DNA from: Oligoflexales bacterium
GTDB taxonomy: Bacteria; Bdellovibrionota_B; Oligoflexia; Oligoflexales; RGVZ01
DNA length: 64,000 nucleotides
Assembly (NCBI GenBank): GCA_947494335.1
Contig: CANLUT010000001.1
Span: forward strand, 849,649-913,648
Reading direction: 5' to 3'
The notes below the pieces were generated by a model that saw nothing but the letters and a program-made list of their open reading frames with translations, was not told where the DNA came from and did no database searches. Below are positions 54,932-60,105 of this stretch, in pieces. The position numbers and the translations under genes were made by a program. Position 1 is the stretch's first letter; each line of letters opens with the position of its first letter.

Positions 54932-55234
54932 ATGATGATGAAAGTTTATTCAGCTTTGCTAATCGTATTTTTATCCCTCATGGGAGCCGGTCAAGCTCAG
55001 GCATTGACGGCTAATCAGGTTACATTTCAGTTCCTCAGTAGCGGTAAATATCGGGTCAACCTGTATTATACGGTGCCAGCCCTCAAGGAGTTCCGGGAGT
55101 CTTACGTTGAATTTGATGATAGGAAACGCGCAGAAGCTTTTTATTTCGACGTGCTGCGCGGTGCTGATTTTTACTTGCAAGACGAGCCGCAAACCAGATT
55201 CGTCAATGAGCCCATGGCTCCAAGTCCTTGGTGA
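54932..55234 (+). CDS. Small secreted protein
   Basis: A 100-residue protein with a signal peptide (cleavage near AQA-LTA, residue 24). The mature part (QVTFQFLSSGKYRVNLYYTVPAL, YVEFDDRKRAEAFYFDVLRGADFYL) looks like a small alpha/beta domain. ATG triplets at 54932, 54935 and 54938 all start the same frame. GGATAGGGGATGG lies upstream. Function unknown. It converges with the PfkB gene. Confidence 0.7.
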   Translation: MMMKVYSALLIVFLSLMGAGQAQALTANQVTFQFLSSGKYRVNLYYTVPALKEFRESYVEFDDRKRAEAFYFDVLRGADFYLQDEPQTRFVNEPMAPSPW

Positions 55235-55256: not shown

Positions 55257-56234
55257 TCACGAGTTTTTAACGTGAGTCAGGGCCCGATCACTAACGACAG
55301 CTCCAACTCTCGAAATGACATCACTGGCAAGCGTTGCAGCGATTTTTCCGCATGTAGCAAGGTCGCGGCCTTTCAAGAACCCATGCAAAAATCCAGCGGC
55401 AAACATATCGCCAGCAGCTGTTGTATCAACAACTTTTGTGGGAACAGGGCTGATTTGGAATTCTTCTTTGCCTTTTACGACCAAAGCACCATCCGCACCG
55501 AGCTTCACAACTGCTATCGAACCCGTTGCAGCGATGCGTCTCGCAGTTTCTTCAGGCGAGGTTTGAAATAGCAGCTTTGCCTCCTCGCGGTTTGCAAAAA
55601 CAATATCAGCCTCGGCCTCAATCAGAGCGATGAAGTCGCTGCGGTTACGGTCAACAACAAAAGGGTCAGCCAAATCAAAAGAGATGATAGTGTTATGCTT
55701 ATGCGCTGTTTCGATAGAGCTTTTTAATGCGCGTTTCTGATCCTCAGTATCCCACTGGTATCCGCAGAAGTGAAAAACATGTGACTCGGCGATCTCTTTG
55801 TGAGGTATATGGGTCGCGTCGTAAAGCCGGCTTGCTCCCAAGTTCGTATTCATGGTTCGTTCGCCGTCTGGGGTGATCAATATCAGGCATGTCCCTGTGC
55901 TTTCCGCGCCATGGCCGCCTAGCAAGGATTTTATACCCAGGGATTCCATTCGCTCGCGAATGCGGCGACCATACTCGTCATCATTGACCATCCCAGCAAA
56001 AACGGTTTTGTGCCCGAGGCTCGCTAAGGTTCTGATGGCATTCATGGAGCTACCGCCAAGCTCGGTCACTTTCTTCTTTGTGCCGAATTGGGCAAGGACT
56101 TCGCGCTGACGCTGACTGTCAACTAGATGCATCACGCCTTTGGTGAGTCCAAGTCGTTTAATGTCAGCATCTTCAATTTCAATCAAAACGTCCATCAATG
56201 CATTACAAACGCTGGTAATATCATAGGTCTTCAT
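55257..56234 (-). CDS. PfkB-family sugar/adenosine kinase
   Basis: A 325-residue ribokinase-fold enzyme. Motifs include VTELGGSSMNAIRTLASLG near the N-terminus, STGTCLILITPDGERTM in the middle, and the C-terminal signature VDTTAAGDMFAAGFLHG with the catalytic Asp and ATP-binding anion hole. The sequence is close to adenosine-kinase/carbohydrate-kinase members; the substrate is not assigned. CGGAG precedes the ATG. It is 32 bp after the membrane-protein gene of the MBL cluster. Confidence 0.88.
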   Translation of the reverse strand: MKTYDITSVCNALMDVLIEIEDADIKRLGLTKGVMHLVDSQRQREVLAQFGTKKKVTELGGSSMNAIRTLASLGHKTVFAGMVNDDEYGRRIRERMESLGIKSLLGGHGAESTGTCLILITPDGERTMNTNLGASRLYDATHIPHKEIAESHVFHFCGYQWDTEDQKRALKSSIETAHKHNTIISFDLADPFVVDRNRSDFIALIEAEADIVFANREEAKLLFQTSPEETARRIAATGSIAVVKLGADGALVVKGKEEFQISPVPTKVVDTTAAGDMFAAGFLHGFLKGRDLATCGKIAATLASDVISRVGAVVSDRALTHVKNS

Positions 56235-56266
56235 AGTGCTAGTCTCCGGAGCATGAGGCGTAAAGA

Positions 56267-56809
56267 TTAGCTCGCCTCACGAGAATTGTCACGGAGTTCT
56301 GAAGGGTGTTTTGACATGAGTTGTGAATGGCTTATTTGTTCTGCGTAAAGGCTAGCCAGTCGCGTCTTGAGTTGAAAAAATTCTTCTGTTATTTCAGCGT
56401 TTTCTTTCTTTAAAAGCCACGCATTCCAGAATGCACAGATTATCGCGAGAATTGTCCAGGATTGAGGCCTAGAAAGGCTGACGAAGGCCCACAAAAACGC
56501 GATCGTCAGCATGCCAAGACGAGTAAAGCCGATAAACCGTATCCCACACCAGCGGCTTCCGGATTGACGCAAATGGCGCAGATAAAGTGCACCGACGATC
56601 AAGGCAACGGGAAGGTTTGCAGCCCGCCAGGCAAACACTGATCCGTAGATTTCCCCTAGAATGGATGCTGACGTAAGCAGGCACATTAGAATCAGAGCGC
56701 GTTGACGTCTTTGGCGCTGCACCCAAGAAAGGATGGAAGCCGGGCTATAGGAGTGCAGTATAAGCGTGGCAATTAGGCTACACACCGCAACCCAATAGAT
56801 CTTGGTCAT
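56267..56809 (-). CDS. Membrane protein of the MBL cluster
   Basis: A 180-residue protein with about four hydrophobic spans (near 5-25, 40-60, 65-80 and 95-130) followed by a charged helical tail. The start lies one base after the stop of the degenerate MBL protein (TAA-A-ATG), so it is very likely cotranslated. No family is recognised. Genetic context suggests it localises or partners the two MBL-fold proteins. Confidence 0.7.
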   Translation of the reverse strand: MTKIYWVAVCSLIATLILHSYSPASILSWVQRQRRQRALILMCLLTSASILGEIYGSVFAWRAANLPVALIVGALYLRHLRQSGSRWCGIRFIGFTRLGMLTIAFLWAFVSLSRPQSWTILAIICAFWNAWLLKKENAEITEEFFQLKTRLASLYAEQISHSQLMSKHPSELRDNSREAS

Positions 56810-56810
56810 T

Positions 56811-57701
56811 TTATCCTGCCTTTGCTCGCGCCTGCGTGCTTAAGGATATAAAGCTCTCAACTTCAGATGCCAGGTGAATAGAAATTCTAGAGGGGTCCCC
56901 ACATAGTTTTGGCAACTTTTCGCTTAGCTTCCTAAGCTCAGACTGTAGATGTATGTCGGTCATTTCAGGATGAAACTGGCTAAGATATAAGTCATTGGCT
57001 CCCACTAATAAACCAAGCTTCAGCGCGTCATCGAATGTGGTTCTGTCCTGACTCCAAACATCTTGGTGAGGGCCGTTGGAGGCGGCGCATACAAGAGTCT
57101 TTGCTCCCTCCAGGAAGGTCGCTATTAATGCGAGAGCGTGCTCATCAGGTGAGCTAATCATAACAAATCCCAGGTCAATTCCCGAGGTGTGAGTCAGGCG
57201 CCAAGCGGCCAACGGGTAGGGCGCTAATGGGTGAAGGAGTGGCAACGCCATAATGGTCCATTGACCCCATTGCTTTTTAGTGGTGCTTCCGTGGATTGAT
57301 AGCTTGGACGGAAAGCTCTCTATCCCATTAAAAGGGGTTAGGAGATTGGAACTCATGTCATTGAGGGCGTCTTCGATTTGGGATTTGCTAGCGCTTGTAA
57401 AAAGCTCCAAATGGCTTGATTTGAAGTGAATTGGTGCAAAGAACGGCAAGCCAAGAATCGAGTCCCAAAACAGGTCAGAAAAAAGTATCGCGCAATGAAA
57501 GCGATCTTTTCTGGATTTGTGATCATTCAGCCAATTTGGAAGGGCCTGGTTTAGGCCAAATCCAGCATTTATAAAGATGTGACTGCTATCGTCACAAATC
57601 TCGATGCAAGAGGTATTGCCGCCAAAAGCGATATTCCTTCGACCTGGCACCGAGTGAAATGCCCTGACACCATGAAACTTCATGCGGCAGTTAGTGGCCA
57701 T
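56811..57701 (-). CDS. Degenerate metallo-beta-lactamase-fold protein
   Basis: A 296-residue protein paralogous to the gene upstream: KFHGVRAFHSVPGRRNIAFGGNTSCIEI corresponds to RFHGVRGSRPVHDPHNLIYGGNSTCIEF in the neighbour. Where the intact protein has HTHWDH, this one has SDLFWDS, so the four HxHxDH metal ligands are mostly lost. The first block and C-terminal segments remain. It overlaps the upstream gene by 22 bp. It is likely a catalytically dead regulator or scaffold, inferred from the missing ligands. Confidence 0.8.
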   Translation of the reverse strand: MATNCRMKFHGVRAFHSVPGRRNIAFGGNTSCIEICDDSSHIFINAGFGLNQALPNWLNDHKSRKDRFHCAILFSDLFWDSILGLPFFAPIHFKSSHLELFTSASKSQIEDALNDMSSNLLTPFNGIESFPSKLSIHGSTTKKQWGQWTIMALPLLHPLAPYPLAAWRLTHTSGIDLGFVMISSPDEHALALIATFLEGAKTLVCAASNGPHQDVWSQDRTTFDDALKLGLLVGANDLYLSQFHPEMTDIHLQSELRKLSEKLPKLCGDPSRISIHLASEVESFISLSTQARAKAG

Positions 57702-58597
57702 TCGTCCTCCTCTCGGGCGTTGATAACGTCCATTCCTAGTTGGACTGCCAATCGTTGCGCTACCATTTGTTTTTTTGCGATGTCATGATCCAGATCCTCG
57801 GGTGCATGGTGGAACATGAATAAGCGCTTAACGTTGGCTTTGGAGCAAATATCCATGGCAAATTCTGGTGTCGCATGGCCCCAGTCGGCTTTCAGATTTT
57901 CCTGGTTGAAATGCGTGTCAAAGACAACATTTGGAACGTCTTCTAGAAATTTGATCAACTGACGCTGATAGTTTTTCTCGAACTTTTTAACGCCTATCGA
58001 AATTGCCTGTTCGGTGAATGATTCACCTAGTAGGTTTCCACCCTCGATCGAGGCAATATCCGGTATTATGGCGGCGACGGAGCTCTCGTAACTTATCTTG
58101 TAACCCAGCGTAATATGTTGATGGTTTACCTGAAAGCCAACAACTTTTACTTTTCCTTCGATGATAAACGTTTTTCCGGGGGTTACTTTGTTAAAGCTCA
58201 AGTTGGCTTTGATTGAGGGCTTGGGGATCGGTAGTCGTCCTGGTTTCATCAAATCATGAAATATGTCTTTGAACGGGACGCCGGCCACATCAGGCGCATA
58301 AAAGTGTATTTCGAAGTCGCTACTTTCTAGTTGTCGCAAAAATGGAAGCATCAATACGTGGTCCCAGTGCGTGTGTGTAATAAGAATATGCAGCTTTTTA
58401 CGTTGTGGGTTTACTGATTTTAATGCTGATAGGTTTTGTAAACCGCTACCGCCATCCACGACGATTGAATAGTTCGAGCCGGTATCGAATTCAATACAAG
58501 TCGAATTTCCGCCATAAATCAGATTGTGTGGGTCGTGCACCGGACGAGACCCGCGGACGCCATGGAACCTCAGAATCGCAGCAGGCGATTTTTTCAT
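57680..58597 (-). CDS. Metallo-beta-lactamase-fold hydrolase (phosphodiesterase-like)
   Basis: A 305-residue MBL-fold enzyme. It starts RFHGVRGSRP, then GGNSTCIEF, and has the metal motif ITHTHWDHVLMLPF (HxHxDH). Later ligands probably lie in FQVNHQH, IIPDIAS and FHHAPEDLDHD. The GVRGS...GGN(S/T)xC pattern is shared by MBL hydrolases annotated as cyclic-nucleotide phosphodiesterase-like; the substrate is unknown. It overlaps its upstream neighbour by 4 bp and the degenerate paralogue by 22 bp. Confidence 0.88.
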   Translation of the reverse strand: MKKSPAAILRFHGVRGSRPVHDPHNLIYGGNSTCIEFDTGSNYSIVVDGGSGLQNLSALKSVNPQRKKLHILITHTHWDHVLMLPFLRQLESSDFEIHFYAPDVAGVPFKDIFHDLMKPGRLPIPKPSIKANLSFNKVTPGKTFIIEGKVKVVGFQVNHQHITLGYKISYESSVAAIIPDIASIEGGNLLGESFTEQAISIGVKKFEKNYQRQLIKFLEDVPNVVFDTHFNQENLKADWGHATPEFAMDICSKANVKRLFMFHHAPEDLDHDIAKKQMVAQRLAVQLGMDVINAREEDEWPLTAA

Positions 58598-59466
58598 GAC
58601 GCCTCCCGCTCTGACGAGTGTTCTGTGTCTGAATTCATGTTTTCAGTATTGGTAACTATTCTTATGAGACGGGATTGCACACCGTTCAGTTCAATAATGA
58701 TTCGTAAAGAGATCTGGGTTTGACTTCGGTGAATCACAACCACAGAGGCCGCTGCTGGTGTCAAGAGGTCGCAAATTAGCAGCTGCTCATCTTCTGATTT
58801 GGTGTCGGACGTGATTTTGAAGTCTAATGTAAGACCATCTGTTGACAGTTCGTAGGTCGTGAGGCGATCGGCCAATTTTTCTGAGAGAAGCGCTAGTCCT
58901 TTGGCTATGGCTGTAAAGGAAGGATAGTTTACAATCCGGTACTGTTTTGCCCATGGAATCAAATTCGTATGAGATTCAGCGATTCCACTGGAAAAAGATA
59001 TTGACGATGCATACCAGGATGACTGGGGATGAATTCCATAAGTATGCATCAAAGCTTGTAGCAAGGTCAGATCAAGCGTCAGGCCAACTTGGTTTGATGG
59101 GAGAATGATTTTGGAGTTTCCAGATAATTTTTTTGGCGATTGGTTTGATAAAATATAAATCTGAGCCCAGGAAGATTCATGGTCATCGCTATGTGGGAGC
59201 TTCATCCCTTCGGGCAATAAAAGAACGGAGTTTGGCTCTGGAATTGACGGCAGTGACTTGATTTGGTCGACAACTTTAACGCATTGTCCCAAAGCAAGAG
59301 CAGTTCCCTTGAGTTTACGCATTGCGGCGCTGTTACCCTCGGGGCTGATGATGTAGAAAATTGGAGCGGGACCTTTCAACTGGTTCTCCCGAAGCCGTTC
59401 GATATCAAACATGAAGATTCTGTAAGGTAATCGGATATTTCCGGGGAAAGTTAACCAGAACTCCAA
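58594..59466 (-). CDS. Unknown protein of the MBL cluster
   Basis: A 290-residue protein. The first 130 residues alternate short hydrophobic strands and helices (FYIISPEGNSAAMRKLKG, NSVLLLPEGM, QIYILSNQSPKKL), which could be a degenerate receiver-like or Rossmann fold. The remainder is not recognised. TTG 59466 or ATG 59412 are possible starts; neither has a good Shine-Dalgarno. It overlaps the MBL hydrolase by 4 bp (ATGA), so a joint role is likely. Confidence 0.65.
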   Translation of the reverse strand: MEFWLTFPGNIRLPYRIFMFDIERLRENQLKGPAPIFYIISPEGNSAAMRKLKGTALALGQCVKVVDQIKSLPSIPEPNSVLLLPEGMKLPHSDDHESSWAQIYILSNQSPKKLSGNSKIILPSNQVGLTLDLTLLQALMHTYGIHPQSSWYASSISFSSGIAESHTNLIPWAKQYRIVNYPSFTAIAKGLALLSEKLADRLTTYELSTDGLTLDFKITSDTKSEDEQLLICDLLTPAAASVVVIHRSQTQISLRIIIELNGVQSRLIRIVTNTENMNSDTEHSSEREAS

Positions 59467-59514
59467 ATGGTTTGTCCGCTGGCGGATATTCTGCGACAGG
59501 CCTATGCTTCAGAT

Positions 59515-60105
59515 TTAGCTGCGTTCAGTCGGGTGATTTTGGGAATTACCAAGAAACTCCCGAAAGTACAAATACCCCGAGTAGAGGCTAACAACCAGAG
59601 CAAGCCAAATGGCCGACATTCCGATTGTCCTAAATGGTATGTCAAACCATGAGATATCGCGCATAAGCAAACAGAAGATGCCGAGGTCCTGAAAGATTGT
59701 TTTTATCTTTCCGAATGAACTAACTTGGATCGTGTATCCGTCTTCTAATGCCATCAGGCGCATGCCGCTGACTGCGATATCGCGACAAAGCAAAAATCCG
59801 CAAATCCAAGGTGGAAGAATATCTCCGTCTGCTAGTAAGAGAAGCGATGCGGCCGATAGCATTTTGTCTGCAATCGGATCGAGCAAAGCTCCGAGGCGAC
59901 TCTCCTGGTTGTAGAGGCGGGCCAAATAGCCATCAAGAATATCCGTAAGACCCGCGAGTCCGAAGATCAAGGCACAAAGAACGTCAGTAAATTGGGTTTT
60001 AGTGGGGTAGATAAATAAAAGAACTGGGATCGCCAAAATTCTCGTTAAGGTCAGTTGGTTGGGGAGCTGACTTAGCCATGCAGCCTTGCTTGTTGGACGA
60101 GGCAT
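59515..60105 (-). CDS. pgsA: CDP-diacylglycerol-glycerol-3-phosphate 3-phosphatidyltransferase
   Basis: A 196-residue membrane enzyme making phosphatidylglycerol phosphate. The CDP-alcohol phosphatidyltransferase motif DILDGYLARLYNQESRLGALLDPIADK (D-x2-DG-x2-AR-x8-G-x3-D-x3-D) is intact. Four to five spans. The N-terminal LPNQLTLTRILAIP is typical of PgsA. It starts the minus-strand cluster, divergent from nadB, with 48 bp to the unknown protein. Confidence 0.93.
   Translation of the reverse strand: MPRPTSKAAWLSQLPNQLTLTRILAIPVLLFIYPTKTQFTDVLCALIFGLAGLTDILDGYLARLYNQESRLGALLDPIADKMLSAASLLLLADGDILPPWICGFLLCRDIAVSGMRLMALEDGYTIQVSSFGKIKTIFQDLGIFCLLMRDISWFDIPFRTIGMSAIWLALVVSLYSGYLYFREFLGNSQNHPTERS

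Follow-up and report, generated by a model that had tools for sequence, protein, structure and literature searches.

An overlapping pair of metallo-β-lactamase-fold genes in Oligoflexales whose second member has lost its metal site in one genus

A 64,000-nucleotide stretch of an Oligoflexales genome (assembly GCA_947494335.1), hereafter the window, encodes two overlapping genes for metallo-β-lactamase (MBL)-fold proteins, one intact and the other without most of the expected metal ligands. Is the second gene a relic, an altered enzyme, or a dead subunit of a complex with the first, and which of the adjacent genes belong with the pair? The features of the locus are as follows.

59515-60105, minus strand: pgsA, above the cut-off of TIGR00560; flanking housekeeping gene outside the module
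58594-59466, minus strand: U1, about 290 aa, fold not recognised; its TTG start is uncertain, since orthologues begin later; C-terminal tail EREAS
57680-58597, minus strand: MBL1, Lactamase_B_2, complete binuclear hydrolase of the RGSRP / YGGNSTC / HTHWDH / WGH / FHHAPED family
57680-57701, minus strand: 22-bp overlap of the MBL1 and MBL2 frames, with the MBL2 Shine-Dalgarno sequence just upstream, within MBL1
56811-57701, minus strand: MBL2, MBL-fold pseudoenzyme; C-terminal tail ARAKAG
56267-56809, minus strand: TM, multi-spanning membrane protein of 180 aa with an amphipathic C-terminal segment; C-terminal tail NSREAS
55257-56234, minus strand: PfkB-family kinase (PF00294); flanking housekeeping gene outside the module

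An ORF check of the window recovered all six minus-strand ORFs with the overlaps given in the original prediction: U1 and MBL1 share 4 bp (ATGA), MBL1 and MBL2 share 22 bp with the AGGAGG Shine-Dalgarno sequence of MBL2 inside MBL1, and MBL2 and TM lie 1 bp apart. The outer genes do not overlap with these four, the gaps being 48 bp between pgsA and U1 and 32 bp between TM and pfkB. The gene order nadB(-)/pgsA-U1-MBL1-MBL2-TM-pfkB-lepB was found again, in whole or in part, in related genomes, where MBL1/MBL2 overlaps of approximately 16-36 bp are maintained. PfkB is present in 53 of 56 relatives, and pgsA, pfkB, lepB, and nadB remain together at the locus where the MBL genes are absent; thus, the module comprises U1, MBL1, MBL2, and TM. 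PgsA, PfkB, LepB, and NadB are order-wide housekeeping neighbors that occur with or without the MBL genes, hence the proposed six-gene cluster has to be narrowed. The suggested phospholipid link has no support beyond the adjacency of pgsA.

MBL1 belongs to the MBL superfamily by its match to the Lactamase_B_2 domain PF12706 (52.4 bits against a cut-off of 27, E = 6.6e-14). Its metal-binding residues are the HTHWDH motif at positions 75-80 (H75, H77, D79, and H80), H159, D180, and H263, with an additional histidine at position 241, and all ligands are present and invariant in the alignment with relatives. The protein scored under the cut-offs of ribonuclease Z (TIGR02651, 48.6 of 292.95 bits), cyclic-nucleotide phosphodiesterase (NF041851, 17.3 of 400 bits), and the PhnP family (18 of 272 bits). 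A phage origin was considered and discarded, as MBL1 has no phage match.

BLASTP aligned the two proteins over the first 95 residues (33% identity, E = 4e-11). In the MBL2 protein of the window, SDLFWDS occupies positions 75-81, where THxHWDH is expected, which bears out the predicted combination of an active MBL with a degenerate paralogue. Compared with active orthologues, it carries the replacements H76D, H78F, H81S, H220R, H242Q, and H243F and has lost D182; the D4, H5, and WGHS histidine ligands are missing, so that neither the HxHxDH motif nor the bridging Asp of a catalytic binuclear MBL hydrolase is present. MBL2 has no match in Pfam. Its assignment to the superfamily comes from intact orthologues and from the predicted fold: an AlphaFold (AF2) model built on a 41-sequence alignment reached a pLDDT of 91.6, and Foldseek searches with this model retrieved YhfI (E = 2.4e-13), a PhnP-family diphosphatase, RNase Z, and Apyc1. 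A plasmid origin was likewise rejected, since the only plasmid matches of MBL2 were weak and partial, the matched proteins being rhizobial ones annotated as MBL-fold hydrolases.

At least 12 further genomes from the order also have the MBL1-MBL2 pair, thus the arrangement is not due to chance, and the co-occurrence that the original prediction asked to be checked was found, with both genes conserved together at a recurring locus. Within the phylum-level group, 14 of 58 genomes have the pair at one locus. G024 encodes MBL1-MBL2-TM away from pgsA and pfkB (L077), and G013 has an additional unlinked pair with HxHxDH intact in both members (L076, 6271-7991). On the phylogenetic tree, MBL1 and MBL2 form separate groups with support of 100/99, pointing to an old division and not to a fresh duplicate. 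Eight other genera (G010, G013, G017, G018, G024, G026, G031, and G035) possess MBL2 with every ligand, including THFHWDH (THMHWDH in G017), H3, D4, H5, and WGHS. By contrast, four genomes of the genus of the window, g1 (G000, G002, G003, and G005), are fixed for H76D, H81S, H220R, H242Q, and H243F, have F, M, or L instead of H at position 78, and lack the bridging Asp. MBL2 of a fifth member of g1, G004, has followed a separate course of erosion, yet shows the same H-to-D change at the first position. An independent erosion was found in G022 (L082, 8747-9562), where MBL2 has TRFHWDH without H3 and D4, U1 and TM are absent, and the linkage to pfkB is lost. Judged by these alignments, within Oligoflexales MBL2 is dead only in the genus of the window and separately eroded in G022. 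The claim of a dead paralogue therefore holds for that genus and does not extend to the rest of the order, where the orthologues are intact.

Since synonymous sites are saturated among the MBL2 genes of g1 (pS 0.75-0.83), formal dN/dS was rejected, and pN (0.24-0.40 per site) is reported against pS instead. Purifying selection acts on the gene, though somewhat less strictly than on MBL1, which makes MBL2 a pseudoenzyme and not a pseudogene. The length of the branch that carries the MBL2 sequences of g1 on the tree and the additional erosion in G004 and G022 would agree with a decaying gene that is kept only through its frame overlap with MBL1 and its position before TM; we consider this very improbable, because the frame is open over its full length in all five congeners that have the pair, selection acts well beyond the 22-bp overlap, the fold is predicted with high confidence, and the C-terminal tail described below is retained. 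It is also unlikely, to a lesser degree, that MBL2 of g1 has taken on a new enzymatic function with a reconstructed, possibly mononuclear metal site instead of being a dead subunit. Such a site, which the original prediction named as a refuting condition, is favored by the invariance of D76, D80, H157, and H244 in four congeners that share only 49-65% identity and by 44 positions at which the dead clade is fixed for residues not seen in active orthologues. However, of the seven ligands just D80 and H157 are still at their positions, neither the bridging Asp nor the WGHS histidine is retained, and G004 from the same genus lacks H157 and has E instead of D80.

Beyond Oligoflexales, eight tandem pairs were identified among the best 80 contig loci, their genes overlapping by 4-13 bp or separated by short gaps, in myxobacterial, delta-type, or other MAGs (L109, L110, L111, L114, and L134) and in Chloroflexota (L118, L124, and L130). 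The first member is complete in all eight of these pairs, and the second in L109, L110, L118, and L134. In L111 and L114 the second member is without the bridging Asp, and in L124 and L130 it carries H2-to-Y and H3-to-Q/R replacements. When all pairs were counted by eye on the alignments, the first member was degraded in 0 of 23 and the second in 10 of 23 (Fisher 5.6e-4, with rows that are not independent). The degraded second members stand for at least four independent losses; given so few, the bias is suggestive and not proven.

Several members of the superfamily were encountered in other contexts. Two of the tandem pairs (L114, 4507-5577, and L134, 4280-4675) lie near genes resembling roadblock/LC7, and that of L114 is also near a gene for an MglA-like GTPase, all named by eye. 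In two Verrucomicrobia-type MAGs (L121, 5599-6948, and L135, 2811-4184), a receiver domain is apparently fused ahead of an MBL of this family, hence the family may be subject to signaling control elsewhere. Also widespread in the class is a solitary third MBL from this superfamily (L224, 425-1408; L225, 4397-5389; G000:C4:19688-20350), and in L224 and L225 it adjoins putative rimM and trmD genes.

Associations of an active MBL protein with an inactive or weakly active paralogue are known from CPSF73/CPSF100, INTS11/INTS9, and the bacterial RNase J1/J2, all of which form heteromers of β-CASP nucleases, and the best-known examples of pseudoenzyme subunits in MBL nucleases come from RNA processing in eukaryotes. 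MBL1 and MBL2, with approximately 300 aa each, are too short for a β-CASP domain and match best on the PhnP/YhfI/RNase Z side. The phosphodiesterases YhfI, PhnP, Apyc1, and TW9814, which are among the best matches of the MBL2 model, have the metal motif of MBL1 and a similar size; however, MBL1 scores far under the NF041851 and PhnP family cut-offs, and the tandem pair contrasts with a single gene there. The closest parallel is the long form of tRNase Z (ELAC2, Trz1), which likewise combines two RNase Z-type MBL domains, one dead and one active, has a proposed origin in an ancestral duplication, and retains pseudo-motifs in its dead half. That enzyme is a single fused chain with a flexible arm, in which the dead N-terminal half precedes the active C-terminal half, whereas MBL1 and MBL2 are two proteins from separate ORFs with the active one first, no fusion, and no identified arm; moreover, the dead state of MBL2 is confined to some lineages, unlike that of the long form. 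The pair is a fresh variation on a known evolutionary theme, in which the same step from MBL subunit to pseudoenzyme seems to have been taken several times in bacteria, and the module is genuine, conserved, and partly understood.

Joint conservation of the two proteins, together with selection, makes a complex the natural interpretation, and we hold, with somewhat better than even confidence, that MBL1 and MBL2 make up a heterodimeric enzyme that resembles phosphodiesterases of the PhnP/YhfI/RNase Z kind. A single active site would suffice in it, and the second subunit would be free to lose its metal site. YhfI, Apyc1, PDE1, and RNase Z form homodimers (PMC9117128), the long tRNase Z contains a dead and an active MBL half for which a duplication origin has been proposed (PMC2942849), and a split tRNase Z that works as a heterodimer has been suggested for Basidiomycota (PMC2942849); the homodimers of this fold group and the dead half of tRNase Z favor an MBL1:MBL2 heterodimer. 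In the proposed scenario, translation from overlapping frames would favor fixed proportions of two subunits that ancestrally both had active sites; the second would then have shed its metal site in the ancestor of the genus of the window and in several other lineages, while keeping its dimer contacts or its part in shaping the substrate pocket. By analogy with the fold of these enzymes, a phosphodiester bond in a nucleotide or in RNA is the probable substrate. In Oligoflexales the genes of the pair lie between those for U1 and the membrane protein. Heterodimerization, activity, and membrane association are all predictions. Alternatively, MBL1 and MBL2 could each form a homodimer, the two having related substrates, and if they are independent enzymes, the finding shrinks to routine annotation. 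As the states before and after the loss both exist in related genomes, the role of the dead subunit in the preferred heterodimer is testable by swapping active and dead MBL2.

Orthologues of U1 were identified by profile search in 16 of 56 relatives. The protein has no match in Pfam, NCBIfam, PADLOC, or PHROGs, and its structure model, built from three sequences only, has a pLDDT of 41.6, too low for a fold to be read from it. It had been suggested to be possibly receiver-like, which sequence similarity does not support: hhalign gave a probability of 0.1% against five receiver domains, and receiver and roadblock domains were both rejected (0.1-0.2%, with nothing in Pfam). A known anti-phage defense system was also dismissed, since PADLOC had no match for U1, MBL1, MBL2, or TM. 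Positional homologues of TM occur in eight other genera. Six g9 genomes have U1 at the locus without MBL genes, two of them together with TM (L216 and L218), and G025 and G014 encode U1-like and TM-like genes without MBLs (L234 and L235), where the U1-like calls were made by position, supplemented in L234 by a weak match. Based on this co-occurrence, U1 and TM likely constitute a membrane-associated module to which the MBL enzyme is an optional addition.

U1, MBL2, and TM, whose sequences are unrelated, with no mutual similarity noticed, for the most part end in a common C-terminal tail, [A/V/T/I][S/G/A]-COOH, preceded by a polar or charged residue. The tail was observed in the window (56267-56809, 56811-57701, and 58594-59466) and in orthologues from L069-L081, L216-L219, L234, and L235, for instance as NKAS in TM of G002 and as HKAS and SKAS in g9. 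Counting one sequence per genus, it is present in TM of 9 out of 9 genera, U1 of 7 out of 10, and MBL2 of 7 out of 10, and the three genera with tail-less MBL2 likewise lack an adjacent TM gene. The background frequency is about 4%, namely 14 of 335 ORFs in a 14% sample of the genome of the window, taken as stretches, and 9 of 211 flanking ORFs in relatives; as the pattern was set after inspection, binomial values overstate its significance. The TM homologues are so divergent that the tail ranks with the best conserved parts of them. In this genome the tmRNA tag ends in YALAA, so the tails, with their K/E-A-S/G endings, do not copy it; the C-terminus of MBL1, LTAA, resembles the tag end. In Escherichia coli, ClpXP reads tails ending in small residues, especially Ala-Ala (PMC7652416).

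The sequence pattern suggests that a single factor may read the tails of U1, MBL2, and TM. We propose tentatively, as a possible but doubtful scheme, a membrane module of U1, TM, and an optional MBL heterodimer with a shared tag, one reader (a ClpX-like unfoldase or adaptor), and joint turnover or assembly, in which the second MBL subunit would repeatedly have become a pseudoenzyme; if true, a tag common to unrelated partners would be a simple way of coupling the fate of the complex. We consider it unlikely that the proteins act separately and share only the operon, with a tail that merely results from ribosome-binding sites and frame overlaps. In g1 the U1 tail does coincide with the MBL1 Shine-Dalgarno sequence, as does the MBL1 tail with the start of MBL2, and such constraints may be part of the origin of the tail for U1 and MBL1. 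They do not account for TM, which has the tail in every genus counted and where it either lies at least 32 bp away from the following gene or is not closely followed by one; moreover, the tail Ser is encoded by AGY as well as by TCN, and both U1 and TM retain the tail where the MBLs are absent.

Two further proteins were noticed for their C-termini. An 817-aa protein (L093) with few relatives has the same tail, which is also found in its G002 counterpart, with a related one in G010. At 54932-55234 on the plus strand of the window, convergent to pfkB, lies a gene for a signal-peptide-like protein of about 100 aa; this gene occupies the same place in distant relatives (L216-L221, L232-L235, and L240), and the C-terminus of its product is conserved, ending in Pro-x-Pro-Trp (PSPW, PDPW, PEPW, or PTPW).
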